This document shows, piece by piece, positions 4,710 to 29,600 of a DNA stretch of 64,000 bases. Where the stretch lies: the NCBI GenBank assembly GCA_903813345.2, contig CAIIXF020000003.1, forward strand, positions 5,543,815 through 5,607,814. Reading direction: 5' to 3'. A program made the position numbers and the translations under genes. Position 1 is the first letter of the stretch, and every line of letters begins with the position of its first letter. This DNA is from Owenia fusiformis (lineage: Eukaryota; Annelida; Polychaeta; Sabellida; Oweniidae). The notes below the pieces were generated by a model that worked only from the letters and a program-made list of their open reading frames with translations, was not told the DNA's origin and did not search any database.

Positions 4710-4715
4710 ATCGTT

Positions 4716-4826
4716 TATGTCACTATCGTGGCACATATGCCCTCGGTTCTCAGAGATCAATGTCCCTCCCAAGGTCGGGCCATATATCACTGAGACCTCG
4801 GGCATATATGCCACGATAGTGACATA
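4716..4826. repeat. Foldback with arms of about 29 bp
   Basis: TATGTCACTATCGTGGCA opens the left arm and TGCCACGATAGTGACATA closes the right arm, with CCCTCGG / CCTCGGG as the inner ends. It directly abuts the preceding MITE and may belong to the same composite insertion. Confidence 0.75.
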
Positions 4827-4829
4827 ACC

Positions 4830-6892
4830 TCTAAATATTTACACATGTCAAATGTTTATTAACAATGAACATTGCATTAAAGTACATGTGGACGTCAAAT
4901 AAATTACTCAAAAGTGAATATAAGTAAAATAAACACCATTTAAAGAGGCACATTTTGACACATCTTGATATTTTTACGTTTGGGGATATGACTGATGTTT
5001 ATTTATTACACCAACTGTAAGATTCTTTCCCTTTCAGCTATTTTGTTGATTGTATGACAAAATTAATATTTAGATGGATGGTGTAAATGTTTTAGTGTTG
5101 ATTTTGAGGTTAAAAATCCTGGATTTTATAGAATCTACAGCATTCAATAAGAGAATTATTTTGAACTTACTTTGAATATTATACTACTTTGCAAACCAAA
5201 CTAGTAGGAAGGTATATTTCTTGTATATATTGTACTGTGTATTTTTACCTGAAATGTAACATTTTTGTATTAAGTAACAACATGAGAATATTTGTTAAGA
5301 ACATGTTACTTGTAAATGAGTCATTTTAATTCAAAGCATTTTTAAGTTGTATAAAAATGAAATTTTAAAATTAGTTGATTATGCAATCACTTTTATCATG
5401 TTTAACTGATTGTGATCCTCACTTTCCCATGGGTCTAGCTGTAAAATCCTGGTAGGAACAGATACAAAAAAGGTGAACTCTGAGATGGTGTTTAGGCAGA
5501 AAAGGGTTCAGCTACTTAAATCAAGGTTTCAGATTTCACTCAATGTTTCGTATCACATGATTTTACATTCTATTCTATTGACCTGAAGTTCCCTTCACCT
5601 TGCCTGAGCTCTTAGGTTTGATTAAGTGGAAGTTGATAATGACTATAAGTAGTAACCTTCAAATCATGGGTGTGTAAAATAGGTGTGTATTTTTAAACCA
5701 ATAAGAAATGCTGTTGATAATGGAACAGATTGATTGTAATCCTCTTATTTCATTGAGCCATTGTTAAACTACATTTTGGAGAAACCTGTCAACAACGTGC
5801 CAAGGTCAATATTACAAACAGTTTACAATAACAACCTGCATGTCAACACTTTTAAATCTCTATATGTGATTTATCAAATATTTTCAAATTGATCTTTAAT
5901 TTTGAGAGGTCTAAAAGAACATCAAAGCACATTGGTTATTAATATATTGTATTCTTGCCCTATTTAATAAGATGTATATGGGAAACTGTTTTTAACAGTT
6001 TACATTACCATTGCATTGTTAAGCTATTTTGAAACAAGGATATGACACAGAGTGGACTATTTTCTTTGGTATATTGAAACCTCATACATGTATATATTTA
6101 TCTAAGAGTTTCTTTGAAACCGTAACAATTAATTTATAAATAGGCCTATGAGGTTTCAAAACACTGACTCTGCAGCAACTGACTCTGCAAAGTGTAGTAG
6201 ATCATTGAGTGTATTCCTTCACTTCTGTTTGATATTGATTCACACAAGGCAAGGTGCGTCCGCTTCCAGCCAATCCAAACACAGTATTTCATATAACTGC
6301 AGTGCATGATATAACCAATCACCACATCCAAGGTGATCCCTTGTGGTTGTCAATGTGACAACTTTTTTCTACAGAATTAAATGTGCTTTGCCAACTTGAC
6401 CATTTCTAAAAGTGTCATTGAAAATATGTTCTTTTAGTGATTTCGTTTCTAAGTGACATGGTAGAAAATATTTTGCAGTGTGTGAAAAGATTTTTAAGCC
6501 AAAGACTCAATGTATTGTGAAATGACCAAATTTTGGAAAGCAACACCTTCAAGGAATGGACATTTCACATTTCACTGAGTCCAGGGCTTAAATTCTTAAA
6601 TAAATTTCTATTTTTTAAGTTAAAGCCATCAAGGTGCCCATTTACTTTAAAATGTAATTTTTTACCTTTTGTTTCCACATTATTGGTTTATCATGGGAAA
6701 AAGAAGGCCAATTGCATTCAGGTTAGCAAAATTTTAGTGTAACTTTTATAGAAGATTTTAATGAGATGAGTGCAGGGAATGAAGTGGTTTTGTGATGTTG
6801 TAAATTGTACTTACTTTATTTGCTAATTCAGTCAGACATATATACTGTAACTGTATTTTAACTTTTCCGGTGATTAGATTAGAGTAAAGAAT
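4830..6892. other. Intergenic AT-rich DNA
   Basis: This lies downstream of the b5 gene. I see no exon, RNA gene or clear terminal-repeat element; short open frames here lack any recognisable family motif. Part may be 3' UTR of the b5 gene, since an AATAAA occurs at 4898-4903, but that cannot be settled from sequence alone. Confidence 0.5.
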
Positions 6893-7060
6893 AGGTATCG
6901 ATATGGTGAACTGAGAAAAGCAATGTTTTTATCTTAAACCAATTATTGAAAACATTCTGTAAAAAATGACGTTAAATTGACAATGTGTAAGATTTTCAGA
7001 ATTTTTAGATGAATGGTTTAAGAGAAACGTGTTTTCAAAAAGTTCACCATATCGATACCA
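6893..7060. mobile_element. MITE with TATCGATA-type ends, intact short copy
   Basis: The left end GGTATCGATATGGTGAACT and the right end AGTTCACCATATCGATACC are perfect complements. The element is about 168 bp. A second copy of this family at 46918-48369 is split by later insertions. Confidence 0.85.
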
Positions 7061-7623
7061 CTCCTTTGGTGCAAATTAAAGGCTTGAGTAAATGAGAATT
7101 AAATTCTTAAATGTAGCATTTTCTGTCAGTTTATTATAGTGTAGATTTAAGATTTTTACATGTAGTATATTTTCTCGCATAGTTACGGTAAAAATCAAAA
7201 TTCTTGCAGTAGCACTTTCTTGCATAGGTATAGTGAAAATTTAAAATCTTACATGTAGCATTTTTTATCACACAATTATAGTAAAAATTAAAGTTCTTAT
7301 AAGTAGCATTTTCTTGCACAATTACATTTGTAAATGTCTACAGGGTGTCTAAAAATATACTTTTCTTAGATCCAAGTCTGCAGTTGATGTTGACTTGCAA
7401 AATGTTTAAAAATATGTAATGTTTATTTAATAATAAATGTCATGATGACTCCACTATGCTTTTTTATATTTGTGTCATAATTGTACTGTTGGTTGATGTT
7501 AACACTACTGAATACATTCAAATACATTCACCAATATATTTTGCAAAGTTGTTTTAGTTGTTCTTATAAAGCATCATTTTTAAACTTTCCCCATATAATA
7601 CCCAATATTGATGTAACAACCAC

Positions 7624-7900
7624 TAAAACAAGGCATTAACATGACAAAGTGTCACCGCCTAGTTGAATACCATTAGTTCCATCTTAAGTCAGATTTGAAT
7701 TTCTGAAAACTTGTAGATGATTTTGAAAAAAAACTGGTCAATTCGAAGCAAGTTGAAAAAGACTTTTGTCAACCTTTTTTGACCTTGAAAAGATCATTGA
7801 AGGTGAAATCTTAAATATAGAGTCAGATTTGAACTTCTGAACTTGTAGATGATTTTGAAAAAATTGAGGTCAATCTAAACAGTACATGTATTTGGAAGTT
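7624..7900. repeat. Interspersed repeat, AAAACAAGGCATTAACATGA family
   Basis: This opens with AACAAGGCATTAACATGACA and AAGTGTCACC and holds two tandem units that include CTTGTAGATGATTTTGAAAA. A longer copy lies at 61660-62172. It is non-coding. Confidence 0.8.
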
Positions 7901-8230
7901 TAAGAATTTGTTACGGATGAAACCACCACCCCCAACCGCCGCCACAAAAACGGAAACCATAATAATATTTCACCACTTTTTGGTGACATAATTAGCTAAA
8001 GCTCATTTTTAAGAGGCCCATCCAAACTTAACTCAATGATAATGTTATATGATATAAATGTTGGTTTATTTATCATTTTGTAGCCACATACATATTTAAA
8101 TCTTAACCATGAACTACTGACAATGTTACTTTCAAGCTTGGAAATTCTGCATGATTCATTACTTACTACCATTGCTTTACTGTGGAAAAAAATTGAAAAT
8201 CAAATAAAAGATAAATCTGTAAACTAAAAA

Positions 8231-9315
8231 TACAAGGTGTTTCAGAACGACCATCCCCTCTCAACTAACAATCCTGGAGAGCATATGTTCACTGGTCCCC
8301 ACCTGGTTAAAAAGACGTTACACCTTATTTAGCATATTTCATAACATCTTAGTTGCATTGATTTATGGAGCCATTGGATGGATATACTAGTGACTGATTT
8401 GCTTTCCAGTAACGGATGTTACTATTTACATACAGTTAAAAAACTTTTTGGATACAAATCAACCTTCTCCAATGGAAGGTACAAATGGTGTTCCGCTTGA
8501 ACAAGCTTTACTTATTAAAGGGTGACGCATATCGTTTAGCAAATCGAACGCTCGTTTCTGGTGTTGCTCACCGTTTAGTATAAAAGGCCCGATACCGGAA
8601 TAATACTCAAGGGTTCACAGGTTCAAGGTCGTTGTGTCAACACCTCTAACTGTTATATAGCATAAGTATATTATAGATCGTCACACATTTATAAAAGGGT
8701 GATTTTTATTTTGACAAATCAATTCCACATTTATGGGTGAAGTTTCAGGATCTTCTATTTGTGTATAATAAGGAAAAATTGGCATCTAAATTTCCCCATA
8801 ACGTAATAGCACACAGCTTGGCATATGAAATATCCTACAAATGAAACAAAGCAACACAAACCGGTTTCTAATACAAGAATTTATATTGGCTGTTGTACAT
8901 GTATTATTTGAACGCAATCACTCTTTGGATAACGTTTTCAAAATCATTATAAACAGATTACTTTATCTCAAAGACAATTTCAATAAACTGGATTTTACAG
9001 AACTCCCCTTATTTCTTAAAAATGGACTGATCCAGTTGATTCGCCTGGAGCCGCCATATTGTTTTTATACGGGATGCTAATCGGAACCCTTTAAACACCA
9101 ACGACTCTGAGAGCTCTCAATGATAGCTCTTAATAATACAATGGATTATATAGTTGATCTGCACATCTCTTTAAATCCAGTATAAATTTTGGCCAAGAAT
9201 TGAGGAAATTGGGGTGAGTATATTGTGGAGCCCATGTATATACATCATGGGGGTATGTGATCCAGGATTGACTATGGATGGGGGATTGGGGACAGCCATT
9301 ATGAAACACCCTGTA
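8231..9315. mobile_element. Mariner-like non-autonomous element, about 1.08 kb
   Basis: The left end TACAAGGTGTTTCAGAACG and the right end, read on the other strand as TACAGGGTGTTTCATAATG, form imperfect inverted repeats starting with TA. No transposase is visible; the 79-codon frame at 8841-9080 has no recognisable motif. The segment 8990-9095 recurs inverted at about 27503-27600, so part of the interior is a dispersed repeat. Confidence 0.7.
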
Positions 9316-9509
9316 CAATCATAATTGTTTACCCAAGGCCTGTTTCTGCAACAGTTATCTACATGAATAAGGTTTTGTTTGAATATTGTTACATTTATCA
9401 GTAAAGAACACTACCCATTGTTATACATACATGCGTGATTGTACATGAGTGTATACATGTAGGCATATGTTTTATGTAAGATGGTCAGGTGTACTTTAAG
9501 CTGTCTGTA

Positions 9510-10080
9510 TACAGGGTGATCCATAAAACAGAACCCTCCAAAAATGAAATAACTTCTTTAATACATTTGTAATCAGCTTCATTTTTCATGTACAGAAACT
9601 AACTACAAATCTATGGATGACAATGTGAGACTAAATTCTTTACATAAAATGCAATATTCTTCTTGTTAATGGTCAATTAAGCCGATCATTTTTTCCATTA
9701 GGGTATTTCACAGTTTACCTTTCTTCCTCTTCCAACAAATAATTGAATATTTGACTTTGATGTCTCATGCTCAGACCTATCATTTTGCGGTCTTTATGAT
9801 TTCATGAGAATTTATCCAATGGAATTTTGTAGTCTTGCTCAGAGGCCACTAATTTCAGTCATCTGATTTTTACAAGTTTAAATTTTTTCAATTTAAATAT
9901 TAAATGATACTTTCACTTCATCTTTGGATTTCAAAGATCATCCATGTTATCACAAATAATCAATTTTGTGTAACAACCTTAATATCATATTATCATCTAT
10001 AGATTCTAGTTCATGCACATACAAATTGGGTTGATAGGATAACTTTTAGAGGGTTTAGTTTTTTGTGGGTCACCCTTGTA
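9510..10080. mobile_element. Mariner-like MITE, 571 bp
   Basis: Inverted ends of about 30 bp: TACAGGGTGATCCATAAAAC on the left and, on the other strand from the right, TACAAGGGTGACCCACAAAA, both running into an AACCCTC. Both begin with TA, the usual target of mariner/Tc1 elements. No ORF is present. Confidence 0.8.
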
Positions 10081-11223
10081 GCCATGTCTCAATTGCAAAG
10101 GGTCTGATTTATACGTTGCATTATATATGAATTTCTTTATGAGACATTATACTTTCAAAACAAAACCTCTTTCAGGTATGTAACAAATGAATAAGATGTA
10201 TATCATATCACTGAGTTAGTGTTATTACACTATTTTGGTGCTCTATCAAGTCACCTAAAAGGTTGAATTACATCACCTAAAAGGTTGAATCACATCAACT
10301 TAATCAAGTTTTTCTTGACAATGAACTTGGAAAATTAAATTAAATTGGCATACAACTAGTTGATCTTGTTAACATGTGGATTGAGAATTAACCCGTGATC
10401 CCAATCATAAGAAATCATTTTTTAACATTTTGTCAGTGGTTTATTATTAATTAACCTGACCTTTCTTCAGAAAAGCTAAAGATCCTTGGAAGTTGAATAA
10501 AATAAAATTATTGGCTTAAATTTCTACTATAAGAAAATTCAGCAAAGAATTCAAACATGTCAAAAATAGAAATATGTGAGTGACCTTAGTATTTTAACAT
10601 GCAAATCTCATTCAAAATAAGACTTCAACAATGAGATTTCAAGGTTATATAGCAAATGTTTAATTCTGTGACCCCCTATATCTTGGATTTGGCCTTAAAG
10701 CTTTTAAAACAAGTCTCTTTGCATAAATGTGTCCATAGATGAAGGAAGATATAAACTTACTAAAGGTAGCATCAGAGTAAAAAAGCAACTAGAGTTAGCC
10801 TAGTAAACAGATTTTGAATCTGGAGTCTAATAATAATAAATTGAAATACATGTACTGTAAATAAGTAATAGACTGCAGATTTTTAATCCAGAGTCTAAAA
10901 ATAAATTAATAAAATGATAATAACTACAAAATTTATAGGCCTTGCCTTCTTGTAATAAATATAAATATTTACAATATCTTTATCACAAAGTGGCCTCATA
11001 TTAATCTGTTTACTTATATGTAAACTTACAGTGAAATTTCTGTCCAATGAACTATGTACTAAATTGTGCACAGCTGATCAATGAGTTTTCACTTTATACA
11101 ATATGGAGTTGTTATTAACTAATTCAAGTAAACAGAGAGATAGAGATAGCCCTATAACATCTATGTGTCAATCAGTTTTTCAGATGATACTGATTACATA
11201 ATTTCTAAACCATCGTTGTTGAT
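10081..11223. other. Intergenic region between convergent b5 and spire genes
   Basis: AT-rich DNA with a short local duplication (TCACCTAAAAGGTTGAAT twice near 10250-10290). I see no gene. Confidence 0.5.
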
Positions 11224-11229
11224 TTTATT
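11224..11229 (-). terminator. Polyadenylation signal of spire
   Basis: On the minus strand AATAAA lies about 88 bases past the spire stop codon, a fitting position for the cleavage signal. Other AT-rich hexamers nearby could also serve. Confidence 0.5.
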
Positions 11230-11316
11230 TTACAGGTTTCACTGATAAGTCTAAATCATAGACAGCCTTGCTTCTGGTGGTTCCATCAAACAGGTTTTAC
11301 TGTAGACTCTAAAGCT

Positions 11317-11689
11317 CTACAGCTTATATACTGGCTTCAGTTTCAGATGGAAGTTACGGTTAACTTTCCTTTGAGTAGGCTGAGGTAAAGTTAGAGTGCC
11401 TGTGTCAGGTGCATTAGCTAAAGTCACTCTGCTGGCCCTAATCACATGACAGATCATGTCTTTACAGTCTGTACATATTGCCAATAGAGGGCTCTCAATA
11501 GAGCCCCTCCCCATTCTAGGTGACAGCAGCAACTGTTGGGCTTTATGCCAGCGCTGCATCACAGGGTTACTATTAGAAGTGTTCACATTGAGAGTCTCAG
11601 CTTTGTGGCCATTAACATTTACTGCATCTGGTGATGGGGTACTGATATCTTTTACTGCAAGCCTCGGAGAATTTGGTGCCGACCCAGAA
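11317..11689 (-). CDS. spire: Spire terminal exon
   Basis: 124 codons with stop TAG. Acceptor TTTTCTTTAG. A polar linker precedes [13 protein letters not shown], the last cysteine pair of the FYVE-type finger (residues 648 and 651), then a basic tail [14 protein letters not shown]. This tail corresponds to the conserved C-terminal block of the family. Confidence 0.93.
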
Positions 11690-14600
11690 CTAAAGAAAAA
11701 AATCACATGTAAAAGATGTGCAGAGATCAGTGGTACATATCAACATTACATTTAAGGCATGTAAGGTGTGTTAAATGAGAAGTGCTTCAAAGTACATTTC
11801 CATAAAAGTAGGAGTGTTTTGCAATGTCATGAGTCTTGATTCTATTGAGAAACCTTTCCCCCTGGTTTCAGTTATAGTGTAAAAATAACATTACATTTAT
11901 ATGATTGCAAAGGAATCCCGAAAGTTATATCAATGATATAAATCATAGAGGCAAATTAATGCACCATTTCCATGATTTTGTGAGAATTATGTATTCAAAA
12001 TAATCATAACTCCACAAAGCAAAAAGAAAACAATTTTTGAATGTTTTACATGCTAATATCATATTCTCAAACCTCTCATTTTCAATGAGATCCTTATTTT
12101 TAGGTGTCTTCAGGCCAGGACTGAGGGCAAACACAGGGATGTTCTCAAAATGTTCACTAGGGATCTGCATCTGAAAAATAAAAGCCTCAAAATAGAATTA
12201 AATGTCAAAAATGATATGATCAAAATAATGACACAATATGACTTATATGAAATATAAATATTTATGTGTTTTGGAGTTGGCTCAGATCACTAGATATTCA
12301 TACAGTTAAATCTATCTCGTAAGTGATGTATAGATGGCACAAGTGCATAGGTGAGTTAATTTACGAAGATCATGTGATAAGGATGAAATGTCACGTGACT
12401 ACATTAGGCGGGAATCAGTTTGTGAACTCATAACCTGGAAAGCCCACCAGCCTCCCCAGCACCAACCATAGTAATGAACAGGTTAATGTACTGCAATTAA
12501 AGTAAGTAAAAACATATATCAAATATATTGTGTTTTTACTACGCAAACCTTTACTACTTACACTAATATTGCCACTATGTGCTAACATCCACCATTGAAT
12601 CTATCTATGGCCAACTTCCCGGGAATTTCTTGAGCATATTACACTGTGCACCCCCGCACACATGCCCGGAGATTCCTCAATTATTCCGCCATTTTCCTTC
12701 TGTAAAGTCGGAAATTTTAGAATCGCAATAAATTTACAAATAACTTGTGACTATGGACACGGAACTAGGAAGTTAGTTGTTCTACAGGTTCATCAGTTAC
12801 AAATGAAAGTAAGAGGACGAGGAAAATAGATCATATGGAACTATAAGACATGTAAGACAAGTTTTCAAGGTTTTTTCTTTGGGTTGTTAGTCCACAAAGA
12901 AAACATCTGATATAAAAATGTCGAAGATCTTACCTCGTTCGTTTTTTCTTTGCTTGCTCCATATAGGGTCTTCAGTCCCGACATGAGATTATAGTAAGCA
13001 TATGGAAAAGGTCTCTAGTGTCAATTGACCTTTTCCAGACAATTTGTCATATATAAATGACAATTTCACAGGGGTCATTAGACCAACAGAAGACATCATG
13101 TACAGAGAACGTAATATTACATGTTCTTCTCTGTGTTATGTTACATGAGAGGTTTTCAATCCAGATAAGAAAGTAAGGAAGCCCGAAGAAGGTAGACACT
13201 GTGTTTATGCCTACAGTACCCTGCCTTACATTGAGGTCTTTCTTTTGGTTGTCAGTCCATAAAGAAAACATTAACTGTTCAAGTTTACATAGCTCTCAAT
13301 TCTTCGTCTCTGTATTTATCACATAAACGTGTTCAGTTCCAGATGAATATGAGAAATTTGAAAAATATCTACATCTACATCTGAAGATGGCTTCTTTACT
13401 GCTGAGGTGTTTTTGGTTGTTAGTCCACAATAAAAACACATATGTGTTCAGGAGAACGCAGACGAAATGGCTTCTTTACTGCTCATGTGTTTTTTGGTTG
13501 TAAGTCCACAATGAAAACACATACGTGTTCATTAGAACGCAGTTATCATCTCTTTTCTTTATGCATAGTTTATAAAAGGACTCCAGTCCCGATATGAATT
13601 ATGTAAACATGAAGAAATAAATACACCAGTAAATTTGTCTTTCGGGATTTGACATGTGTCGAGCATAGACTGTATGATCCTAAGATGAAGAAGATATTTC
13701 TTCATCTTACAGTAGCGTGATCACGATGATGTTCAGATGAAGACACTTGGTTCACATACATTTAAATGTATTTAGAAAATAACATTGTATGTTGTAAAAC
13801 CTGGTGTAGTATGCATACATAGAACACGTATGCTGACCACAGAATAATTAGTTTATTTAGTCCATTTAGTTTTTATACTAGTTATGCGCAGCAGGATAAG
13901 TTTGTCACTTATGCATTTGGTACAGTTATTTCTGGACTGAGTTGTTTGTCTACTGTTCAGAAAAAGGATAGGCTAAAGATTAACAAAAGTAACTGTAAGG
14001 TTTACAGTAGGCCTACTGTGAAGTCGTCATCTTCTTCACAGAAAAGACCAATATAGCTTTTTAGCCTACTCATCTTCCACGTAGATCTTTTCGAATCAGA
14101 GACCTATAAGTTATTGTCTCTGATTGAGCGTTCCTGTTTTCTCCAAGTAATTGTAGATGTTGCTATTACTATATGCTGAAGAAAACGATTCATGGATGAT
14201 CACAATCATCCTGTTATTGGTTGATTCCGTCTCTTCAACAGAGAAGTAGAAGGTGACTTAGATTGTTTTAGTTTTGAGTCACTAGACTATTCTTCTAGCT
14301 ATATTAGCCAACAACTGAACAACACAAGTAATTATTCATATAAGAAGTGTTGTATGCGTTGACAAATGACAATGTCATGAACTTGTCATTTCTGAGTTTC
14401 AGACTGAAATCTTTATATTCTCAAGAATCATTTCTGAATACTCCTATTTAGACTCTATTCCTGGAATATTAACGTTCAGAGTTGAGTTGGCGGAAGTATC
14501 TTTGACATAGGTTACTTTCGCCAGATGCTTCTCATAAAGCATTCAACTCAGTGTTAATTGTTTGAGGAATTAAGATTACAGTCGAGGTTTTTTGAAAACT

Positions 14601-17600
14601 TAAACATTTGGCGGCTTTCAGTTTGCCAGTTAAAGTAAGGTTATGTCTAAAACATCACCTCAGTAAAGGTTTTGTTTCCTTTATTTTTCTTAGCCTTGAC
14701 AGCTTTTGAAGTCAAAAGTTGATTATTGAAGTCTAAGATGACTTTTCAGATCTCTTGGTAAGTCAGTTCAAGAGACTGTAAATCAAATTCTGTGTTTTTC
14801 ACTACAACCTTGGGTGTTATTCCAAAGGTTTTATTTTGTGACGAGGGGAAGTAGTTATACTTACTTATAACAAGTCCCTATATCTGTATATACAGACCAT
14901 TGGCCTGTTTGCTACCACATCACACACAGAATGAATATTTGTTTATTTTGACCTTGTTCAGGTTGCTCAGTTTTTAAACACGGTTTAAGTTTAATCACTG
15001 TTTTGAAGAGTGTTTTACTGAGCCAGCCTCAGTCATGACAGTATCATCTTCAACAGGTTCACAGTCGTGCCGTGCTTCTGTGTAAACATTTGTGTCTTAA
15101 ATAGCCACACATTTACTTTAAATCAGTGTATCATCAGTGTTCAGTTCAATCACTAATTGAGAGATCTTACATGTTGATTAGAGGTTTATGTTTTTTCACC
15201 ATGGAATCACTTGTTACCATGTTTCCTTGGTGGTAGAACCTCAATACATCATTTAGTGGTACTGAAGTACTATATACTCAAGAGCTAGTGTACTCTTTGT
15301 TATAGACATGGTTTCGTTTGTCTTGACATGAGCTCTTCCAAACAAGAGATTCAGACTTACCTTTTTACGCATTGGTCAATTAATATTAACAGTGGCAATT
15401 TTTCACACATATGCCAAAAATTGTCGTGATCAAATTGTGACCAAGTTATTTTTGTAACAGTCTCATGATTTTAAGAATCACAGACATTTTCTGCTGACTG
15501 TTATACATATGTTCTTTAACGGAAATCACAGTCGTTTCCGTGCGGTTTTGGAGATATTTCTATACGAATTATCTTCAACTCCATCTATACTTTATCAAAT
15601 AGTTTCATTTTTGAGACAGTATATTTTTTCAGATGTTGTTTTGAGTAGAACACTGAATTAAGGAATCGTCCTGTCCTGAGACTAGTAATGTCACTACCCC
15701 CTTAATAGGACAAATATACATCTAAGGTTTATGATGTCAAGATTCCAAGTAATTAACAAGGCATTTTGGTGCCCTGTCACAGGAATGTAAATTCTCAGGA
15801 ACCACATAGTCATCGGTTCGATTCCTATTACCGTAGCTACTGTAGTTTAGTGGTGTTTGCCTATTCTATTTGGCAATTGAATAAGGCTTTTAACGTTGCT
15901 TTATTTTCCTCTGTACCATTCATAATTGAGGCAGATGGTGGTCAACCTCTTGAGGTGTTTAACAGAGGATTTCAATGCGAGAATAATTCTCGTTTTATTT
16001 ATACATGTTATATGGGAACGGTTCTTGAACACTTACAAGGTAGATGAAAATTGCCCAAGAACATTTTTGTGTTCAAAGATGCAAACCATAACGTAGTTGT
16101 TAATATCCACGTTGCTTGACAGCTAGACTATCCTTCAAAATCAGGGTTCATTTTCAACAAGAGAAAGTGAAACACCTGTTGATTTTAAGGATGAGAAGCG
16201 TGATGGGTTTTTTAACACCTATATTGCAAGAAAGCAATACTGTGACATCTGACACTACAGTTCAATTGATGTGTAACACTAGTTACTATTAGACATCAAG
16301 ACGTCTCACTTGAATTGTTTGTTGTTCCAGATTCAAAGAATATTGATGTTTAGAACATCAAAGTCTTATTAATGTGAGCTTGCATTTCCATTGCATTCTA
16401 ATGAGTTTATTTACTCATATTTTAGTCATAGTATACATGTTTGTGTATGACTAAACAGCAATATTAGAAGATACATGAAACGTATATCTTCCCTAGCAAC
16501 TTTGTGGATAAATACATTGCAGGTGTTTATCACACTATATATGCTATTAGACTAGAATGCCACTGAATTACATGGTAGTCGTCTTATTTACCTGTAATTG
16601 TTGTAATTGGAACTCTCTAATGATATATTCTATCATGATATCGTACAATTTGTTCTAGTAAATTGTCAGCATATATCAGAGGAGGGTTTTCAGAACCAGT
16701 TCGTAAATGATCTTGTCCTGATAACTTCTTCTAGAGTCGAATGATTCTTTAAGGTTTTGAGTTAGTGTTGTGGTTCAGTTGAACTTATTCACTCTTAACC
16801 ATTATAATCTCTTTCTTGGGTTTGTACCAAGATCTAGGATTGTATTCAGCAGGTATCATCTAGACATGTTTGGATACATGACTATCTTTAATTTACCGAT
16901 TTTTTCAGAACGTGTTCGGTAATATGCACAGTTTTATTGTTGAATTGTAAACAACCAAGCATACTCGACTAATAAGGAGGGTGTACATGGGTTCTTCAAT
17001 GATTGAACATGTGATCCTAATGGCAATGAGTAAATGATGAATCTCTACGTAGTTTATCATTCAGACATAGCTTAGCCTTTAAGGGTTACAATGCTTTGCA
17101 GAAGCACTTATACCAGATGTTTAATATTTAAAGATGTAATTGGGATTTCGGAGTTATCACAATCCCAAGAATATTTAAACAACTGGTGTTCATAGTTCGA
17201 AGATCATAAAGAGTCCAACATATGGTAACCGATGTAGTACTTCGTCTCACCTTTACTCAAAAGAGAGAACGAAAAGTTTGCATTGTTTTGAAGAACCAGA
17301 TACATTTAAGGAACTTCAATATAATTCCTTTAGATCTTTTAATCAAGCAATTATTAGCTGTTATCTATACACGTACAAGGTATACAGAAGTATAGAAGGG
17401 TCGAAAAGTAAAGAAGGGTCGAAAACGTTATGTCAAGGCCAGTAGCTACTTCTTCAATCTTTGTTTCTAGAAGTCGAGTGGAAGATATGTTTAAAGCAGG
17501 CACAATGGGCAGCTTAAATTACTTCCAAGTCATGTATGTAAGTCTAAGACATGTAAGACTATGCTAGAAAATATTCTGACATTTTTCTTAACTTTATGGC

Positions 17601-20600
17601 CAATCAGAATGTCAGAATTTGTACTGTGGTATAAGTTCGTTTTTGACCTTTGGTGGTTGAATTACCCCGCCATAGATAGACGTCCGTTTTTTATCATAGT
17701 GGCCATTTGAGTCATATATGAAATAATACTCAGTAGTTTTTTAGCATAGTGAATCTGAATTATTAGTTTTGTTAAGTGTTTAACACAGTTTGAACATTTC
17801 ACCCCAGAACTTGTACTAGGTTATTAAGTTCCTTAGTCCCGAAGGCTTTAGGATGTAAAGTTGGGTTACCTAAAGTTGTAGGGTTGATCAATTTGTAGTT
17901 TGTTGCAAATTTATTCTATTCCCGTGGTCTTTCTGCTGTTTAACCCACCGCCTACTTGGCTGGGATTCAGCACATAGTGGCAATATTAGTGTAAGTAGTA
18001 AAGGTTTGCGTAGTAAAATCTTAAAATTTAAAGTAATTTTAGTTTTTATTAGTAAACCATACTTACCTAATATTGCCACTACAAATATGTCCCTCCCTCC
18101 TCCTCCGCTTACAGCAGAATTTTCATAAATGTTATAGCGGAATAATTGAGGAATCTCCGGGCATGTGTGCGGGGGTGCACAGTGTAATATGCTCAAGAAA
18201 TTCCCGGGAAGTTGGCCATAGATAGATTCAATGGTGGATGTTAGCACATAGTGGCAATATTAGGTAAGTATGGTTTACTAATAAAAACTAAAATTACTTT
18301 AAATTTTAAGATTTTTAATATATATCTTAGTGATTGGGACCCCTTCAGTATAAGAATATAGTATTAAATTGAGATAGATTAACTAATGTTTCTGTAAGAA
18401 TTATGTTGAAATCATGTTAACCCAATAATTGATATAACATATTGGGTTAAAGTAGTGATCAAGCAACTCCAAACTGCACACAACTCAAATAAATATAAAT
18501 AACTTTATTCTTTTTGCGTTCCAAATTGAAAAAAATACTTGCACCCTTTTAATTTTAAAGGCATTCCAATTTCATTTATATAGAAAATACTTGTAAAAAG
18601 TTTCATCTAAACCTCACAAGCTTATTGATAGTACACATGAAAACTTACATGTATACTACACTTAGTGTACTAAATGTATAATAACATTAAAAGATAAATT
18701 TGATATCTATTAGCAAAATGAATAACTGGAGGATAGACAAAGATTGTGACGATATATTCCACTTGTTGATTTCCAACAATTTATTTTTCCTCAGAATCAT
18801 AGGATTTCCTATAAATATTTTGATAATGAAATGTAGGTCAGCTACAAGCCTCTGTAACCCCCTCCTACTTGACAATACATCCTCTCAGTGGGGAGGGCCA
18901 CAAGGTCTCGTAGCTTGACTAAATGAAATGCTAAAGGAATGCAACTGTGACCCCCTCTACTTGACAATACATCCTCTCAGTGGTGAGGGGCCACAAGGTC
19001 TCGTAGCTTGACTAAATGAAATGCTAAAGGAATGCAACTGTGACCCCCCTCCACTTGACAATGCATTATCTCAGTGGGGAGGGGTCACTGCACAAGGTCT
19101 TGTAGCTTGACTAAATAAAATGCTAAAGGACTGCAATAATCAGTGATAAAAATGGGCACAATTTGATTTCACCATTATATTCTTTCACACCTTTTATATT
19201 TACCTGTCTGAGACACTTCTTGCAGACTTTCCTCTTGCAGAACTTGCAGTGTGTCCCCCAGTCTCCCAGTAGAGAGAACTTCACCTTCCTACAGTTGAAG
19301 CACACCTACAATCAGACAGAGAACAGTCAAATAAGCAAAGTGCACCCTTAAACCATACATGATTTCACATGTTTACCTTTAATGGGAAGGTTAACTGGAA
19401 GTAGGAATATTACATTTGATTACAGAAATGGACACTTGGCATCTGTCAATATATCTTGAAATCAAAAATGGTCAAATGGAAGGGGGTTTCAATTTTGATT
19501 ACAGAGTCCTGAGAGCAAAAAAATTGCAATTGCAAATGGCATTACCTTTCCTCTTGCCACAGACTCATATAGGCCTGGTACTGTGAGCAGTGTCTCCAGC
19601 TCTGCCTTGGTAAGAACATTGCGAATGTGCATCACTTCCTCTACTGTCAGTGATAGACATTCTAGTGGATTCTGGAGGCTCTTCTACAAAGCAGAGACAC
19701 TTCATTCTAAAGACATCTTAAAAGCATGGGTAAAAATTAAAAAAATATTGATATTTTGTGCATGAAAGTTTTGTTTTTAAGTTTATATCTCATATTCATA
19801 GGATTCCATTTTAAAATTGGCACAGGGTCTTGATTCAATATTTAATACATTTTCCTTTCCTTTCATGAAAAACCTTAAAGGATAGAAAAATATGCTTTAT
19901 TTCCAAACTAATTTAAATTTTACAAGCAAACTTTTTCATATCCATGTACAGATCATATATGCCTCCATACTTTTCTATTAAAACTAAATATATCTATTTC
20001 AGAGCATGTTCTCAGAAAAGTTGATAATTGATGGTGTTAATCTTAAAAATGCACATGCACACACTTCATGTCATTAAACTAAAATGTAAAAATCAGAAAA
20101 ATATCATAAAAATATGAATGCACAAACCGTAAAATTAGCAATCTGTTTTCTATGTGATTTTGAAGTAGATTTATTAGGAAGAGTCGACTGGCATGCCTTA
20201 GCTTCACCCTTACGCCTTTCAGGAGTCTCCCTTAAGATGGCGCCAGCATTTGCATCTGATCCATCAATTTTATTTCCACTTTGAGTACAAGAAGTCACTG
20301 TTGAATCATCCCTTCCATTGGGGAGAATTGTTTTGTCTTTATGTACATCAGTTAAGTCATCTAAACCATGCTTTAAGGAACTACTTTTATGCAAGTGTGC
20401 TTGAAATGGTGATATAGCCACCATTAATGAGTTCATAGGAGATTCACAAACTGTGATACTATGTCGTCTTTCCAGAGAATGGCGAGATGTATCTAGATCT
20501 GTTAAGGTGAGGTCAATAACTGAAAGTGAAGGCAAACACTACAACTACAAGGTCTAGTTTTACAAAATGCTCTTTGTGCAAGACAATGGCCAGTTCTAGT

Positions 20601-23600
20601 GGAATAAAAATAACATACTCCTTGGCCAAATACAAGTCCCACCTTAATACAGTGGGGGCTTAGTATAAAACAAGTGAAGCTGTAATTTCAGACATAAATA
20701 TGCATTGACAACTGTGTTAGTAAATTCTAACTGATAAACCATGCTAGGGGGAAGGGGTCAATTTGATACCTTGATTTTTCTAGGAGATTCACAGACTGTT
20801 ATACTGTGACGACGTTTTGGATGGCGTTTAGACTTTTGAGTAGAAAGATCTCTAAATACTGAAAACAATTAAGTCCATTTGTCAATTTGATTTGACATTT
20901 GTTCCCTCAGTACCTCAGTACTACATGCTGTTTAAAATACATGCTTATGTAATGTCAAGTGTCTCCTTCAGGAGTCATACTTTTCCACTTCATTTTTCTA
21001 CATTTTTTTTTAAATGCTAATAATTTTAATGAGAATAATATTCAACCTAAAAGATGATTCAGATTTTCTGCTACTCTTTAACTTCCTTGATTATGGTTTA
21101 AGATTATTAGAAAAGAAAAGCTCATAGTAAATTTCATACCTTTCTGTTGCCATGGTGACTGTGGGTCTCCATCTGGGGGTGTGAAGGGTGAGAAATCACA
21201 AGGGGTCACCTTGAACCTCTCATCCTCAGGGGTGGGTGAAGGGGAGAGCACAAAACTGTCATCATAATCGTCATCATCGTCATCATCATCATCAACATCT
21301 TCCTATAAAGTCAAACATTGAAGGCATAATGGGAAACACTTTTTCCAGATTAATAAATGCTTAAAATATTTATTTCAGTAACACATGTCCCAACATCTGT
21401 GTTGAAAAATGGATGAATCAAAACAGAGTCATGGTCTAGTCATAGTTTCCAGAGTCAATATTTACAATAGAACAAAATTTACCAAATCTTAGTCCTATAG
21501 TCAGATAGTCAAACTCAAGAATGGCTTAAAATTGAAGCATCCTCCAATTTATTTAATAGCCTTATTGGTGATGCTTTATTGGGGATGAGTGTCAGACTGC
21601 ATTGTATTCTAGACAGCACTTACATCAAAGCTGTTTGAAAGCAACAGGGTCAGGTCAGGTTTAATAAGCTTGCGTGTTGGCTGAGGAGTCTCATCCCCCT
21701 CACAAAGCTTGGTACGTGAAGTCTCAACTAGAAACCAAAAATGAAATAAATTGATAAAACATACATGTACACTGAAATCTCACATTTCTTGATTCATTTC
21801 GTTCTTGTACTATAACATTATCAACACTTATAAAACTAGAATACAACAACTCCAAAGAGTAGCAAATCCAAACAAACAAAATATTCCTAATTCTGAGTTA
21901 TTTCATGAATCTGAAATGTGTCACAATATGATATTTACAATCAACGCTTAAATATTCTCAATTTGCACACAAAATTTTGGGAAGGAAAATCAAAATTGCC
22001 ACATTAAAGGTTAGCCAGTAAGGCCAGAAATGAATAATCAGTTATAGATTTTCATACAAATAGCTGGTTTGCCTGGCTGGAAACATGTAGACAAGAATAT
22101 TTCTTTTGAAAACTGTTCCTTGTAGAGAGGTTTTCTTCCAGTGAGGTGTTCCCTTGAAGTCGTTTTACTGTATGTATCATAATAATTGATATCATTAGTA
22201 TGGGACATTTAAGCTTTTGTACATCTACAGAACAAAAGATTGAGAAAATAACTTATACCTTACCTATTTTTCCTGGAATGGGCCTCAGTTGATGCTCTTT
22301 CCTAATAGCATTCATCAACTGCTCTCTGATGTTCAAAACTTGTTCTGGGGGAGGCTTCAACTTTCTGTCAGAAACCTGAAAAATACAAAATCAAGGCATT
22401 GGGTTCTAGTTTTTGTTGAATGACTAATTTTAATATGAAGTATCCATTTTTCAATCTATTACATTAATATGAATCCTCCTGAGCACCATTGTAGTGTGAA
22501 ACCTGTACTGAATTTGATCCATCAAAGGATTCAATTAAGGTGGCCATTTTGGAGTTCCAAATACACATCACAAATATCAGAATATATGATTCAAATTATT
22601 ATATCTATTTCAAACTTACATCTGTCTAGAACAAATGACAAATACTTTAAATCACTTGCAATTGACTTTTCTCTTCAAAGACACTTACTAGTACATTCCC
22701 ATAACTTTTAAAATGTAGCAAGTTCTTGATGTGACTGTGGATTTAGAACTGAGAGCGCAATTCATAATGTTCTTGAATGCCCTCTCAAAAAACAAACAAA
22801 TTGCCAGCCTCCAAAAATAAGGTTACATTAACATTTTTAACAGCCTCAACTACAGAGTTGATTCAAAGTTTCATTTCTTTTACATGGAGTCTTCATAGAT
22901 GTGTTTATACAACAAATGTTAAATTCTCAGAAGCAACCACTAAGTAGTTCATAAACAAATCAAAGGAAACTGCACCCTAACATAGCCATGAAATACAGAA
23001 ACACACTCCACCTATTTAACATGACAGTACCTCACCATGAAATACAGAAACACACTCCACCTATTTAACATAACAGTACCTCACCATGAAATACAGAAAT
23101 ACACTCCACCTATTTAACATGACAGTACCTCACCATGAAATACAGAAACACACTCCACCTATTTAACATGACAGTACCTCACCATGAAATACAGAAACAC
23201 ACTCCACCTATTTAACATGACAGTACCTCACCATGAAATACACTCCACCTATTTTACATGACAGTACCTCACCATGAAATACAGAAACACACTCCACCTA
23301 TTTAACATGACAGTACCTCACCATGATATACAGAAATACACTCCATCTATTCAACATGACAGTACCTCACCATGAAATACAGAAATACACTCCACCTATT
23401 TAACATGACAGTACCTCACCATGAAATACAGAAACACAATCCACCTATTTAACATGATAGTACCTCACCATGAAATACAGAAACACACTCCACCTATTTA
23501 ACATGACAGTACCTCACCATGATATACAGAAATACACTCCACCTATTTAACATGACAGTACCTCACCATGAAATACAGAAACACACTCCACTTATTTAAC

Positions 23601-26600
23601 ATGACAGAACCTCACCATGAAATACAGAAATACACCCCACCTATTTAACATGACAGTACCTCACCATGAAATACAGAAACACACTCCACCTATTTAACAT
23701 GACAGTACCTCACCATGATATACAGAAACACACTCCACCTATTTAACATGACAGTACCTCACCATGATATACAAATATACACTCCATCTATTTAACATGA
23801 CAGTACCTCACCATGAAATACAGAAACACACTCCATCTATTTAACATGACAGTACCTCACCATGAAATACAGAAATACACTCCACCTATTTAACATGACA
23901 GTACCTCACCATGAAATACAGAAATACACTCCACCTATTTAACATGACAGTACCTCACCATGAAATACAGAAACACACTCCACCTATTTAACATAACAGT
24001 ACCTCACCATGAAATACAGAAATACACTCCACCTATTTAACATAACAGTACCTCACCATGAAATACAGAAATACACTCCACCTATTTAACATGACAGTAC
24101 CTCACCATGAAATACAGAAACACACTCCACCTATTTAACATGACAGTACCTCACCATGAAATACAGAAACACACTCCACCTATATTACATGACAGTACCT
24201 CACCATGATATACAGAAACACACTCCACCTATTTAACATGACAGTACCTCACCATGAAATACAGAAACACACTCCACCTATTTAACATGACAGTACCTCA
24301 CCATGAAATACAGAAACACACTCCACCTATATAACATGACAGTACCTCACCATGATATACAGAAACACACTCCACCTATTTAACATGACAGTACCTCACC
24401 ATGATATACAGAAACACACTCCACCTATTTAACATGACAGTACCTCACCATGAAATACAGAAACACACTCCACCTATTTAACATGACAGTACCTCACCAT
24501 GAAATACAGAAACACACTCCACCTATATAACATGACAGTACCTCACCATGAAATACAGAAACACACTCCACCTATTTAACATGACAGTACCTCGATCACC
24601 ATGAAATACAGAAACACACTCCACCTATTTAACATGACAGTACCTCACCATGAAATACAGAAACACACTCCACCTATTTAACATGACAGTACCTCACCAT
24701 GAAATACAGAAACACACTCCACCTATTTAACATGACAGTACCTCACCATGATATACAGAAACACACTCCACCTATTTAACATGACAGTACCTCACCATGA
24801 TATACAAATATACACTCCATCTATTTAACATGACAGTACCTCACCATGAAATACAGAAACACACTCCATCTATTTAACATGACAGTACCTCACCATGAAA
24901 TACAGAAATACACTCCACCTATTTAACATGACAGTACCTCACCATGAAATACAGAAACACACTCCACCTATTTAACATGACAGTACCTCACCATGAAATA
25001 CAGAAATACACTCCACCTATTTAACATGACAGTACCTCACCATGAAATACAGAAATACACTCCACTTATTTAACATGACAGTACCTCACCATGAAATACA
25101 GAAACACACTCCACCTATTTAACATGACAGTACCTCACCATGAAATACAGAAATACACTCCACCTATTTAACATGACAGTACCTCACCATGAAATACAGA
25201 AACACACTCCACCTATTTAACATAACAGTACCTCACCATGAAATACAGAAATACACTCCACCTATTTAACATAACAGTACCTCACCATGAAATACAGAAA
25301 TACACTCCACCTATTTAACATGACAGTACCTCACCATGAAATACAGAAACACACTCCACCTATTTAACATGACAGTACCTCACCATGAAATACAGAAACA
25401 CACTCCACCTATATTACATGACAGTACCTCACCATGATATACAGAAACACACTCCACCTATTTAACATGACAGTACCTCACCATGAAATACAGAAACACA
25501 CTCCACCTATTTAACATGACAGTACCTCACCATGAAATACAGAAACACACTCCACCTATATAACATGACAGTACCTCACCATGATATACAGAAACACACT
25601 CCACCTATTTAACATGACAGTACCTCACCATGATATACAGAAACACACTCCACCTATTTAACATGACAGTACCTCACCATGAAATACAGAAACACACTCC
25701 ACCTATTTAACATGACAGTACCTCACCATGAAATACAGAAACACACTCCACCTATATAACATGACAGTACCTCACCATGAAATACAGAAACACACTCCAC
25801 CTATTTAACATGACAGTACCTCGATCACCATGAAATACAGAAACACACTCCACCTATTTAACATGACAGTACCTCACCATGAAATACAGAAATACACTCC
25901 ACCTATTTAACATAACAGTACCTCACCATGAAATACAGAAATACACTCCACCTATTTAACATGACAGTACCTCACCATGAAATACAGAAACACACTCCAC
26001 CTATTTAACATGACAGTACCTCACCATGAAATACAGAAACACACTCCACCTATTTAACATGACAGTACCTCACCATGAAATACAGAAACACACTCCACCT
26101 ATTTAACATGACAGTACCTCACCATGAAATACAGAAACACACTCCACCTATATAACATGACAGTACCTCACCATGATATACAGAAACACACTCCACCTAT
26201 TTAACATGACAGTACCTCACCATGAAATACAGAAACACACTCCACCTATTTAACATGACAGTACCTCACCATGAAATACAGAAACACACTCCACCTATTT
26301 AACATAACAGTACCTCACCATGAAATACAGAAACACACTCCACCTATTTAACATGACAGTACCTCACCATGAAATACAGAAACACACTCCACCTATATTA
26401 CATGACAGTACCTCACCATGATATACAGAAACACACTCCACCTATTTAACATGACAGTACCTCACCATGAAATACAGAAACACACTCCACCTATTTAACA
26501 TGACAGTACCTCACCATGAAATACAGAAACACACTCCACCTATATAACATGACAGTACCTCACCATGAAATACAGAAACACACTCCACCTATTTAACATG

Positions 26601-29600
26601 ACAGTACCTCACCATGAAATACAGAAACACACTCCACCTATTTAACATGACAGCTCATATACAGAAATACAGCTCATGACAGTTCATATACTCTAAAACA
26701 GAACCATACTTTATAAATTAACCAACACAAATGTAATCTGTTCCCTTGTTGGCCTGATTGCTGATTATTGACTGCAAAATGTGTTATGTCCTTAATTAAT
26801 GCTAATTTACAACACAAAACAAGGCATATGGTGAACAATATCGTACCTAAAACATAGCAGTGTGGGCTTGTTGACCCTGACAGCAAGATGACCAAAAGGT
26901 TAATCAGCTCTAGAACTTCTTACCACGTAACATGTGTAAAAATTTTGAAACAATTCTGTGAAGTTGTTTTCCTGGAATCACGATAACAAGAAAATAGAGA
27001 CACTGCTGCCCGCCAAGCTGACAACAACACAGTACCTTTTTTAAGTACGATAAAAACATGACCATATCTACATTATTGCCAAATGGCTAGACAGACAAGC
27101 AGACAGACACGTTGGTGATAACACTGGCCCATCAATGCTTAGCCTAGCTGATAAAACCCAAAGAAATTATACAAGAAATTAAGGGAAATCCTGTAGAACT
27201 TTATATTTCTTTGGAGAGTAAGTGTGTTATAAGTTTATATAATCTTGCAAGCCTATACCTAACAATGATTAGAATATTATTAGCACTATAATTAAACTCA
27301 TCCGCAAGACTATAATATATACCAGATCTTCTATCAATTCTACTAATAACTATCAGGTGAATGAACCTCAATTATATTCATATTTATTTATGTATCATAT
27401 GATCCTTGTGAAAATACTGTGTCATAGCTAATTCTCTTTTTTCTCACATTATCACAATCAAAAGATGAAAAACTATCACATACTGTAAAACATTTCACAG
27501 TAAAGGGTTCCGATAAGCTTCCCGTATAAAAACAATATGGCATCTCCAGGCGAGTCAACTGGATCAGTCCATTTTGAAGAAATAAGTCCCATTTATTTTA
27601 CAACACAGAATTGATTTATTATTCGCATATTGTGGTGGTAAATCGTGAAAACATGAATATGCGAAAAGAATCAAATGTACAAATCCACGAAAATTGCTCC
27701 GCTGAATTTGAAGTGTTTTACAGTACTGGAACTGGAACGAGTGCACTTAGGTAACTATACCCAATTGCAGCATTTGAAAGGCAAAGAGCAAAACTAAACT
27801 ATTGGAAATGGTAAAATGATAGATATCCCTGGCCACATAGGTCATATTCTCAGCGCTTGCATTAGGTTAGAAAATTTGTGAGTCCCAAGGACGCAATTTT
27901 TTTAAAAAAAAGTGTCCTTTGAAAAAAAACTGTGTCCCCTATTTCTAGCCTGTTTTGAGGTTTAACTTTATTTTAAAACATTTTTTACCAAAACACCTTT
28001 TAGTATTTGATTTCTTGCCGTGAATTTAAAACGGAAGTAAACATTAACCCCCCTATCACACCAAACTAGTTCTTACCCGTTCTTGCCAGTCCTACGAAAA
28101 CATCGTAAAACGGGCTCAATCTGGCTTTGGTCGGGAAATATGTCTGAAATAATTAGCTTCTTCGTTCTTAAACAGTCTTCAATACGTTCATCTCGTTCGC
28201 AGTTCGTTCAGGTCGCACCAGGTTGGTGTGCAACGTCGTAGAACGCGTCCCTTAGTCTAGAAGGTCATTATGACCTGATTATAGAACGGTATGGTCGCCA
28301 TCGAATTTTGAATCGATTCAAAATTCTAAAATCACATTCCCGTCTGAGAACGTTCATAAAGTTCGTAAATAGACCTTAGAAAGTTGCAGCTACGTTCATT
28401 TCGTTCGCACACAGTTTTGAAGAACGCAGTGGCAACTTGTTTGGTGTGATAGCTATATTTTTGCTAACTCGTTAATAAGCAGTGTTAAATACGTTCTTAA
28501 TCAGTTTAAATCCGTTTGCAATTAGTTCTACCTCGTTCTCAACACATCCTCAGACAGTTCAACTCGTTGTTAAAACGTCCCTAGTAAGATTGAAGTACGA
28601 CGGTTCCGTTCGTAGTACGTCCAGCTCGTCGTTAGTACGTTGTCACTCGTTCTAATTGTAGAACGTGACGACCACGAGAACATTTTGAGCATTGTCTAAG
28701 TTCTAAAGGACCTACCCGTTCGAGTACGTTCGATGAAGTTTGTAAATAGATCCCAAACGGTCCTTAGTAGGTCCAGTCCGTTCGTACACAGTTGAAGCCC
28801 GTTTTCGAGAACGTTGTGGGAACTAGTTTGGTGTGATAGTAGGGTAAGTACAGACTAAATAAACGCATGTCCGTTCAATCGACAATGAATACATTTTATT
28901 TCATGAATAACCTATTTGTTTCTGAATAGGAAAAACTGTGGCGTGTCATGGTTTCAAATTTAAAAATAAACAAAGTCGAAAAAATTCGAGAGAATCATGA
29001 TTATTTGTAAATATTCAACATGTTGAGCCTTATTTACGATTCAAATAAAGGTGAGAGATCATAATTATTTGTTTTTGTTAGGTATCGTTGTAAACACATT
29101 GTAGTATTGACTTAAAAAAATTTTGCGTCCAAAAAACGGAAATATTTTCAATTTTTGCGTCCTCCAAATTATTTTTGAGTCCTTAACATGTACGGGACGC
29201 CGTTAATGCAAGCCCTGTATTCTTGTTTTAATATTTTCAGAATCATAATACAACACAACACAGATTATTCTATAAGTAAACTTGAGTTTTTTGGGACATG
29301 AGAGTAGTTAATTACCATGCCTCCCTGGTTTTCCACCATCCAATATATGCAAGGGTGGATCTAGGAACCAACAGGGGGGGGGGCAAAATTTCAAGTCTGA
29401 TAAAATAAAAAGAATGGGCCCCTAAAACCAAAAAATGGGCCCAAATTTTCAAAATTTAAGGCCTATTTTCTTCAAAATTTGGTCAAAAATTAAAACATTA
29501 TCGGGGCCTTAAGGTCTTTTTCTGCCCCCCCCCAGATCCGCCAGTGATATGATTATATACTGAAGATATGTAGATCTATTCTAAAGGTTTCATGGAACTT

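Follow-up and report, generated by a model that had tools for sequence, protein, structure and literature searches.

Short hairpins in a gene-less DIRS1-like retrotransposon of Owenia fusiformis and in its gene-carrying clade

The stretch analysed here, called the window, comprises 64,000 nucleotides of the annelid Owenia fusiformis (assembly GCA_903813345.2, contig CAIIXF020000003.1, positions 5,543,815 to 5,607,814 of the forward strand). From 12534 to 18314, it holds a copy of a non-autonomous DIRS1-like (tyrosine recombinase) retrotransposon that has lost its genes. The layout is given in Table 1. When copies of the element are compared by blastn, the boundaries fall at 12534 and at 18311-18317, with flanks that are unrelated by eye. 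Among the first 13 copies fetched, the left start is at 12534 wherever the left end is present, and the right boundary falls in the same interval in the nine copies that reach it. The initial annotation had placed the end of the element, and of its right inverted repeat, at 18018; that position is the end of an internal complementary region (ICR), and the true right terminus is 300 bases further, at 18314.

The termini of the element are inverted, not direct. The outer parts of the two inverted terminal repeats (ITRs) are non-identical, and a right extension is present. The two ICRs, which overlap by AAAA (18015-18018) at the circular junction, spell the left and right element ends joined. In the ten copies with both ends, the window copy included, the left junction is TTTTACTACG, and the right junction is AAGA followed by variable trinucleotides. 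By eye, no target duplication of constant length is seen in these ten; one copy, L008, has GTTT on both sides. Miniature inverted-repeat transposable elements (MITEs) are likewise noncoding with inverted termini, but the window element is 5.8 kb long, contains an ICR, and shows no constant target duplication. The last two properties rule out a MITE or a cut-and-paste transposon. The initial annotation was right to hold the locus to be neither an ordinary MITE nor simple satellite DNA. A mini copy of about 276 bp (L014:240-515) keeps the left and right ends and lacks the ICR and the body.

Table 1. Features of the element, in window positions (plus is the coding sense of its relatives)
Feature	Position	Strand	Remark
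Whole element, non-autonomous DIRS1-like	12534..18314	+	about 5.78 kb; ends from blastn of copies
Left terminus	12534..12583	+	begins TTT; 50/50 nt equal to the reverse complement of 17969-18018
Left ITR, conserved part	12563..12692	+	pairs with 18134-18263; single mismatch near the inner end of the alignment
Noncoding body with excess of short Watson-Crick hairpins	12734..17960	+	shuffle comparisons; no ORF of 100 codons or more
Remnant of gag start	12753..12776	+	ATG GAC ACG GAA CTA GGA AGT TAG; aligns where the gag ORF of L031 starts; stop after seven codons
Hairpin, loop TTAGTCC	12874..12906	+	first of four related copies, the others at 13239-13271, 13407-13439 and 13488-13520
81-bp tandem duplication	13387..13542	+	holds two of the four related hairpins
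Remnant of tyrosine recombinase ORF, decayed	17436..17540	+	matches amino acids 936-970 of the L031 ORF
3' region alignable to L031	17440..18314	+	67-94% identity, highest at about 17884-18081
Left ICR	17969..18018	-	reverse complement of left terminus, 50/50 identical
Right ICR	18015..18081	-	reverse complement of right terminus, 67/67 identical
15-mer CTAATATTGCCACTA	18067..18081	+	in both ITRs and both ICRs; also at 12563, and as reverse complement at 17975 and 18249
Right ITR, conserved part	18134..18263	-	alignment with left ITR
Right terminus and right extension	18264..18314	+	ends AAGA + TTT

PMC3266345 describes DIRS1-like elements as having ITRs, two ICRs that overlap on a 3-bp circular junction, a right extension, a motif of 10 or more nucleotides common to both ITRs and ICRs, and insertion without target duplication. 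The window element resembles this group, i.e., Dictyostelium DIRS-1 and its animal relatives as presented there, in its split ITRs, overlapping ICRs, right extension, and common motif, and also in its TTT start, the lack of a target duplication, and a length of about 5.8 kb. It differs in being without genes for gag, reverse transcriptase (RT)-RNase H, and recombinase, and in having a body with an excess of hairpins. The terms “hairpin”, “secondary structure”, and “non-autonomous” are absent from the main text of PMC3266345.

Further copies, which the initial annotation had suggested looking for, are numerous. In the genome (498 Mb in 525 contigs), a 501-base piece of the element matches at least 26 copies, the window copy included, at 93-100% identity, a count that is a lower bound. 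Of the 25 other copies, 24 were fetched and aligned, and C2:6942868 was left out. An 18-copy alignment omits L002, L004, L011, L012, L022, L024, and L026, which are partial or contain insertions, and L013, which has a large deletion, was removed from it for the subfamily and branch tests of hairpins and folding. Private differences amount to about 0.4% per copy, so the family has moved recently. At 13688, copies L005, L006, and L016-L019, which belong to one subfamily, carry one to three copies of a 22-bp unit with a palindrome (AGAAGATATTTCTTCATCTTAC). In L012, a 1061-bp part of the element (L012:4557-5617) is inverted inside the copy; it is 99.5% identical to the window copy, the rest being 91% identical, and may represent a more recent copy that landed in an older one.

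A search with the right end of the element finds three diverged relatives. One, L031, is 5884 bp long and has three long open reading frames (ORFs), and it agrees with the window element in its ends and ICR. An arginine-serine-rich ORF without a Pfam match occupies the gag position and is accompanied by an RT ORF (RVT_1, E 2.5e-21) and an overlapping recombinase ORF. An RNase H match is weak (E 0.0013, below the cut-off). L031 itself has no Phage_integrase match; the loci matched in its protein search are also matched by PF00589, and L035 (E 0.043) and L037 (E 1.3e-4) have weak Phage_integrase matches, both below the cut-off. Another locus, L034, has an RNase H match and a weak match to a Dam-type methylase. 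On this sequence evidence, L031 looks like an autonomous relative with RT and recombinase in the same genome. In L032, an apparent long terminal repeat (LTR) retrotransposon with a 1402-codon ORF and 150-bp identical direct repeats (L032:2725-8026) lies inside an L031-type DIRS recombinase gene.

The L031 recombinase as a query matches 118 places in the genome. Representatives were taken of a 60-65% clade (L034, L035, and L036, later L040-L042), which with L031 and the window element is the first clade below, and of a 39% clade (L037-L039), the second. Both ICR arms were found in four of the six loci, L034, L037, L038, and L039, and an ICR is also present in L031; L035 has a clear left arm and an imperfect right arm of 27 nt, and L036 has the right arm only. 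L035, L036, L040, and L041 are one family, and L034 and L042 are another. The first clade thus contains three independent coding families (L031, L034, and L035), with 56-58% DNA identity to one another. L036, 99% identical to L035, was not counted as independent, and the broken L032 and L033 were not used as families.

In the window element, no stop-to-stop frame is longer than 123 codons, and every such frame confined to the body is shorter than 100 codons. What is left of the genes is the gag start and a recombinase remnant, which tblastn detects in the expected place (40% over 35 amino acids, E 0.006, for the element alone with composition correction off). Since only these two remain, the element is filed as a non-autonomous derivative; the proteins that mobilised it were presumably supplied from outside, the simplest source being elements like L031. 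The element can be aligned to L031 over 475 nt at its 5' end and 870 nt at its 3' end, with weak blocks in the same order between them. Scores of these interior blocks (40-50) are close to the highest obtained in null comparisons (40 and 50); what speaks for homology of the body is the 12 of 58 overlapping body windows whose best match to L031 is on the diagonal, where about two are expected. The lengths are near equal (5.78 kb for the element and 5.88 kb for L031), and the element is a decayed, roughly colinear relative of L031 that has kept its length and ends.

The body of the element contains more short hairpins than expected. In 12734-17960 there are 44 perfect stems that span 7 bp or more and enclose a loop of 3-40 nt, whereas dinucleotide shuffles have 15.8 (z 7.9); over 5.2 kb the surplus is about 28 such stems. 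Direct repeats with equal spacing number 22, and 17.5 are expected. The excess is concentrated in short loops, being weak above 40 nt and gone above about 120 nt. Strong helices number 26, against 13.3 by chance (standard deviation 3.0), and weak helices 73, against 61.4 (standard deviation 3.2), i.e., near chance. The initial annotation had described a hairpin every 30-60 bases over most of the element. Since weak helices are near chance, that spacing is largely expected of such DNA, and what stands is the excess of perfect stems: the enrichment in the array is genuine, though moderate, and is superimposed on hairpins that DNA of this kind has in any case. The compound hairpins named in that annotation exist (helices 14479-14549 around 14488-14523, 16130-16192 around 16147-16171, and 17112-17187 around 17140-17168), and in the dinucleotide-shuffle comparison that it had proposed, both short inverted repeats and folding exceed the shuffles. 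A recurrent AGTCC loop, considered as a possible binding site, is found in four hairpins of the element; two sites are common to L031, which has a hairpin with different stem letters at the place aligned with 12874-12906, and no AGTCC-loop hairpins are at the corresponding places in L034 and L035. Rfam gives no match up to E 1 in 12400-18450, which rules out a known structured RNA.

The excess is a trait of the DIRS clade, gene-carrying members included, and not of the locus alone. The hairpin ratio, observed over expected short perfect hairpins, was obtained in a main count over 21 regions and in four further window stretches; the tandem arrays at 22986-26653, 43111-44994, and 55531-56330 were excluded as controls. 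In the first clade, the ratio is 2.79 for the element, 2.69 for L031 (35/13.0), 2.30 for L034 (36/15.7), 2.22 for L035 (30/13.5), and 2.13 for L036 (26/12.2). The three elements of the second clade give 1.20 (14/11.6), 1.66 (15/9.1), and 1.10 (11/10.0), and the LTR element inside L032 gives 1.28 (12/9.4). Predicted folding behaves similarly. In 120-nt windows, the plus and minus strands fold below shuffles by 3.62 and 4.10 kcal/mol in the element, 3.59 and 2.84 in L031, 4.62 and 4.67 in L034, and 3.19 and 3.44 in L035, as opposed to at most 1.33 in the second clade and 1.25 and 1.06 in the LTR element. In 350-nt fragments, the folding excess is 18.1% in the element (the mean of 14 fragments, 13 of them above zero), 20.3% in L031, 23.2% in L034, and 16.5% in L035; the controls give 6.2, 9.3, and 5.7% (second clade), 3.0% (LTR element), and 5.8 and 2.9% (two flanks). 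Compared with shuffles that exchange synonymous codons only, first-clade gag ORFs fold better by 20.7, 29.8, and 16.8% (z -6.5, -10.2, and -5.3) and second-clade gag ORFs by 4.0, 13.8, and 4.9% (z -0.9, -3.4, and -1.3). Across the window, mean folding z on the two strands is -1.12 and -1.57 inside the element and -0.25 and -0.41 outside it; folding similar to that of the element is found in 1-3000, in 52501-54000 on the plus strand, and in the tandem array on the minus strand. The hairpin and folding excess is thus weaker or absent in the second clade, the LTR element, and most flanks. Of the comparison with neighbouring DNA that the initial annotation had proposed, it can be said that most flanks show less excess and that 1-3000 comes close, with a ratio of 2.41; the other three further stretches give 1.52, 1.20, and 0.

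A number of observations weigh against a trait peculiar to this clade and against selection for it. As to the clade, the controls overlap: four other recombinase loci have hairpin ratios of 1.03-2.00 (L030 being the highest), and eight window stretches have ratios of 0.81-1.69, the top value being reached by both 33001-38000 and 57001-63900. In 1-3000, the count is 21 against 8.7 (z 4.4), and direct repeats are also raised (17/8.5). A 146-bp repeat, 88-90% identical among its copies, occurs there at 1473-1620, 1936-2081, and 2799-2944, one copy being inverted to the other two; because it carries the recurring hairpin arm GATTGGT, part of this count is one hairpin counted three times. The stretch 1-3000 has no match to the DIRS loci, and a separate 119-codon frame on its minus strand resembles, by eye, a non-LTR reverse transcriptase. 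Direct repeats are likewise raised in L031 (26/14.5, 1.80) and L034 (28/16.6, 1.68); stems of at least 12 bp are denser in the flank 1-12500 than in the element (0.48 and 0.19 per kb); and perfect 8-bp stems are few in L035 (8 windows against 4.5). The gag of L038, a second-clade element, accounts for the 13.8% (z -3.4) above. In the C-terminal recombinase region, folding shows no clade difference (6.3, 20.3, and 13.6% in the first clade vs 8.7, 10.6, and 9.3% in the second), and hairpin ratios are higher in the second clade (2.93, 2.89, and 1.78 vs 1.21, 2.05, and 1.43). As to selection, the copies show 5 compensatory and 11 non-compensatory double changes, i.e., no compensatory excess; variable columns make up 13.5% of paired and 14.2% of unpaired positions, so that stems appear unprotected; and subfamily differences are not significantly rarer in stems. 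On polarised internal branches, the folding cost of 0.27 kcal/mol (standard error 0.14) is not distinguishable from the 0.43 of random changes, the unpolarisable root branch (284 changes) being left out. Hairpin positions common to families of the clade number 9 against 7.5 and 9 against 8.1 expected.

Conserved individual structures, for which the initial annotation had pointed to related genomes, were not found, apart from two hairpin sites near the 5' end that the element and L031 have in common in the alignment of their 5' ends. Between L031 and L034, 16 hairpin positions are common, against 8.8 expected and above the null maximum of 14. Covariation among the coding families is little beyond chance: double changes that keep pairing make up 42% at the true register and 33-41% with the partner slid by 1-4. 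Conserved RNA structure was also sought by covariation among the copies, with a negative result. On terminal branches, where changes are presumably mostly post-insertion, the folding cost is milder than random (0.30 vs 0.60 kcal/mol), which we read as mutation bias.

The hairpins turn over. Gains are above random in three of six directed subfamily comparisons (14 vs 6.5, 13 vs 6.8, and 12 vs 5.9, values attained in 1, 5, and 4 out of 300 simulations, respectively) and not in the other three (4/2.9, 5/2.9, and 8/6.0), and losses are near random; the direction of these gains cannot be fixed, as decay from a richer ancestor would look alike. With rooting inside one subfamily, internal branches have 19 gains vs 11.8 (reached by 9 of 150 simulations) and 19 losses vs 25.1 (as low in 21 of 150). 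Three root branches have 6 gains vs 1.1 in 24 changes, the polarity of the root branches and of a long branch (125 changes) being arbitrary. Terminal branches have 16 gains vs 15.6 and 18 losses vs 30.0 (as low in 13 of 150). In certain stems specific to a subfamily, one arm departs from the sequence of the other subfamilies at two or three letters. Template switching was examined as a source of such changes. In 55 change clusters between subfamilies 1 and 3, taken in both directions with templates of 8 or more nt, 0 match an inverted template, 3 a reversed one, and 1 a complemented one; in 40 clusters between L031 and L033, the numbers are 3, 1, and 0. Clusters thus match an inverted template no oftener than the controls. 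The steady density of hairpins together with the turnover of their positions suggests a continuing cause.

The kind of pairing bears on which molecule folds. In a pooled set made of the element and the three coding families of the first clade, with windows merged, perfect 8-bp stems number 53 vs 15.6 (3.40). Stems with one mismatch number 70/40.8 (1.71) when the mismatch is G-U on the plus strand, 68/40.3 (1.69) when it is G-U on the minus strand, and 230/158.0 (1.46) otherwise. The ratios for G-U plus, G-U minus, other, and perfect are 1.67, 1.67, 1.28, and 1.69 in the second clade and 1.29, 1.19, 1.21, and 1.36 in the other controls. Because single elements vary, with the window element leaning to plus and L031 to minus, the pooled G-U result alone is usable. 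The excess is mainly one of Watson-Crick stems, without strand preference for G-U. Since G-U pairs are not favoured on the sense strand, sense RNA is not favoured as the folding target, and the symmetry fits DNA, or a need for both RNA strands to fold. In Dictyostelium DIRS-1, according to PMC4482531, both ITRs contain promoters, and bidirectional expression gives rise to Dicer substrates. We propose that self-folding would compete with such sense-antisense duplexes.

Two known systems are comparable. Plant large retrotransposon derivatives (LARDs), as described in PMC7215508, are full-sized and noncoding, receive proteins in trans, and have reported RNA secondary structure; they are LTR elements, whereas the window element is a DIRS element with inverted termini and individual structures that are not conserved. 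For RNA viruses with genome-scale ordered structure, PMC7642675 gives folding excesses of 15% (a coronavirus), 7-11% (hepatitis C virus), and 1.1% (viruses without structure), with shuffling and fragmenting that differ in detail from ours. These genomes, as described there, resemble the window element in their many consecutive stem-loops, similar folding excess, and poorly conserved positions. The element differs from them in being a retrotransposon in which folding is equal on both strands and G-U pairs show no strand preference.

We favour, tentatively, selection for self-folding of both strands, as bidirectional RNA or single-stranded DNA; the odds for this explanation as a whole are, in our judgement, about evenly balanced. 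The element would be mobilised by proteins that intact relatives supply, L031, with nearly the same ends, being an example. Reverse transcription of its RNA would yield single-stranded DNA; this would be circularised over the ICR, whose presence suggests the circular intermediate, and then integrated by the recombinase. The lineage would be selected for self-folding as such, in a molecule in which both strands count, either DNA intermediates in single-stranded form or transcripts of both senses, which, if they did not self-fold, would pair with each other and become Dicer substrates. More specifically, a clade-wide, strand-symmetric programme of Watson-Crick folding may have been kept after all genes were lost because replication exposes both strands, as single-stranded DNA circles or as sense and antisense transcripts that self-fold before Dicer or piRNA substrates form; this we put forward tentatively, leaning somewhat against it. 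Because of the 1-3000 control, the best explanation and this folding programme are held with less confidence, and ordinary DNA of the genome is given more weight. The initial annotation had suggested selection or a replication mechanism that favours hairpins; the excess does track a replication lineage, but as a trait of the clade and not of the locus.

A less likely but serious account places the cause in the copying machinery: the RT of the clade would switch template within a strand and write inverted copies, so that hairpins arise by mutation, decay freely, and are useless. Perfect Watson-Crick arms without G-U strand preference, unprotected stems whose positions turn over, the gains in three of the six directed comparisons with losses near random, and the stems altered by two or three letters in one arm all agree with it; the change clusters, in contrast, have no inverted-template signature beyond the reversed and complemented controls, the subfamily gains are unpolarisable, and terminal branches gain hairpins at the random rate. 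Ordered structure of the sense RNA, protecting or packaging the genomic transcript as in some RNA viruses, would account for a folding excess of 16-23%, in or above the range of the structured viruses of PMC7642675, for positions as unconserved as reported in that source, and for the synonymous-level signal in gag. We consider it unlikely, since the two strands are equally structured and G-U pairs are in like excess on both, though single elements lean one way or the other. The hairpins might also be a relic of a structured coding ancestor, now decaying in the noncoding family. The lack of detectable stem protection is what a relic would show, but among the regions compared the excess is greatest in the noncoding family, and, given how far its body has diverged from L031, stems that old should no longer exist. 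The two common hairpin sites found by alignment are both near the 5' end, which is what the hairpin-by-hairpin comparison with L031 covers, and a relic seems to us quite improbable. Composition, or ordinary repeat-bearing DNA of the genome, is a very unlikely source of the excess. Weak helices near chance and control stretches with ratios up to 2.41 speak for it, but dinucleotide and synonymous shuffles, the second clade, and the LTR element all fail to reproduce the excess, and 1-3000, with its thrice-counted hairpin, has no DIRS match.

Elsewhere in the window, a 49-bp unit is repeated in tandem about 75 times at 22986-26653, with 96% matches and strongly asymmetric strands (the GC skew is about -0.58 in 23001-26000). 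At 55531-55925 and 56015-56330, about 90 bp apart, are arrays of units of about 15 bp, TTCCCATTTCGCCCC and TGGGAAGGGGCGAAA, which are roughly inverse complements and apparently form an imperfect inverted array. Three copies of a 93-bp unit lie at 18852-19136, about 540 bp past the right end of the element.

Discussion of folding on a large scale has centred on RNA viruses. Among the titles and abstract openings listed in the literature searches, a scope outside which most subscription papers fall, none describes such folding in DIRS elements. The elements described here represent a retrotransposon clade with virus-like folding strength and with coding and noncoding members in one genome, and the sister clade of like architecture serves as a natural control. 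Symmetry between the strands speaks against the customary explanation, which invokes single-strand RNA. The window element belongs to a full-length, recently mobile DIRS family without genes, and if the folding programme proposed above is true, self-folding would be the main cargo of that family. Since the noncoding family separates folding from coding, the need of a transposon to fold, and the molecule in which it does so, become testable.

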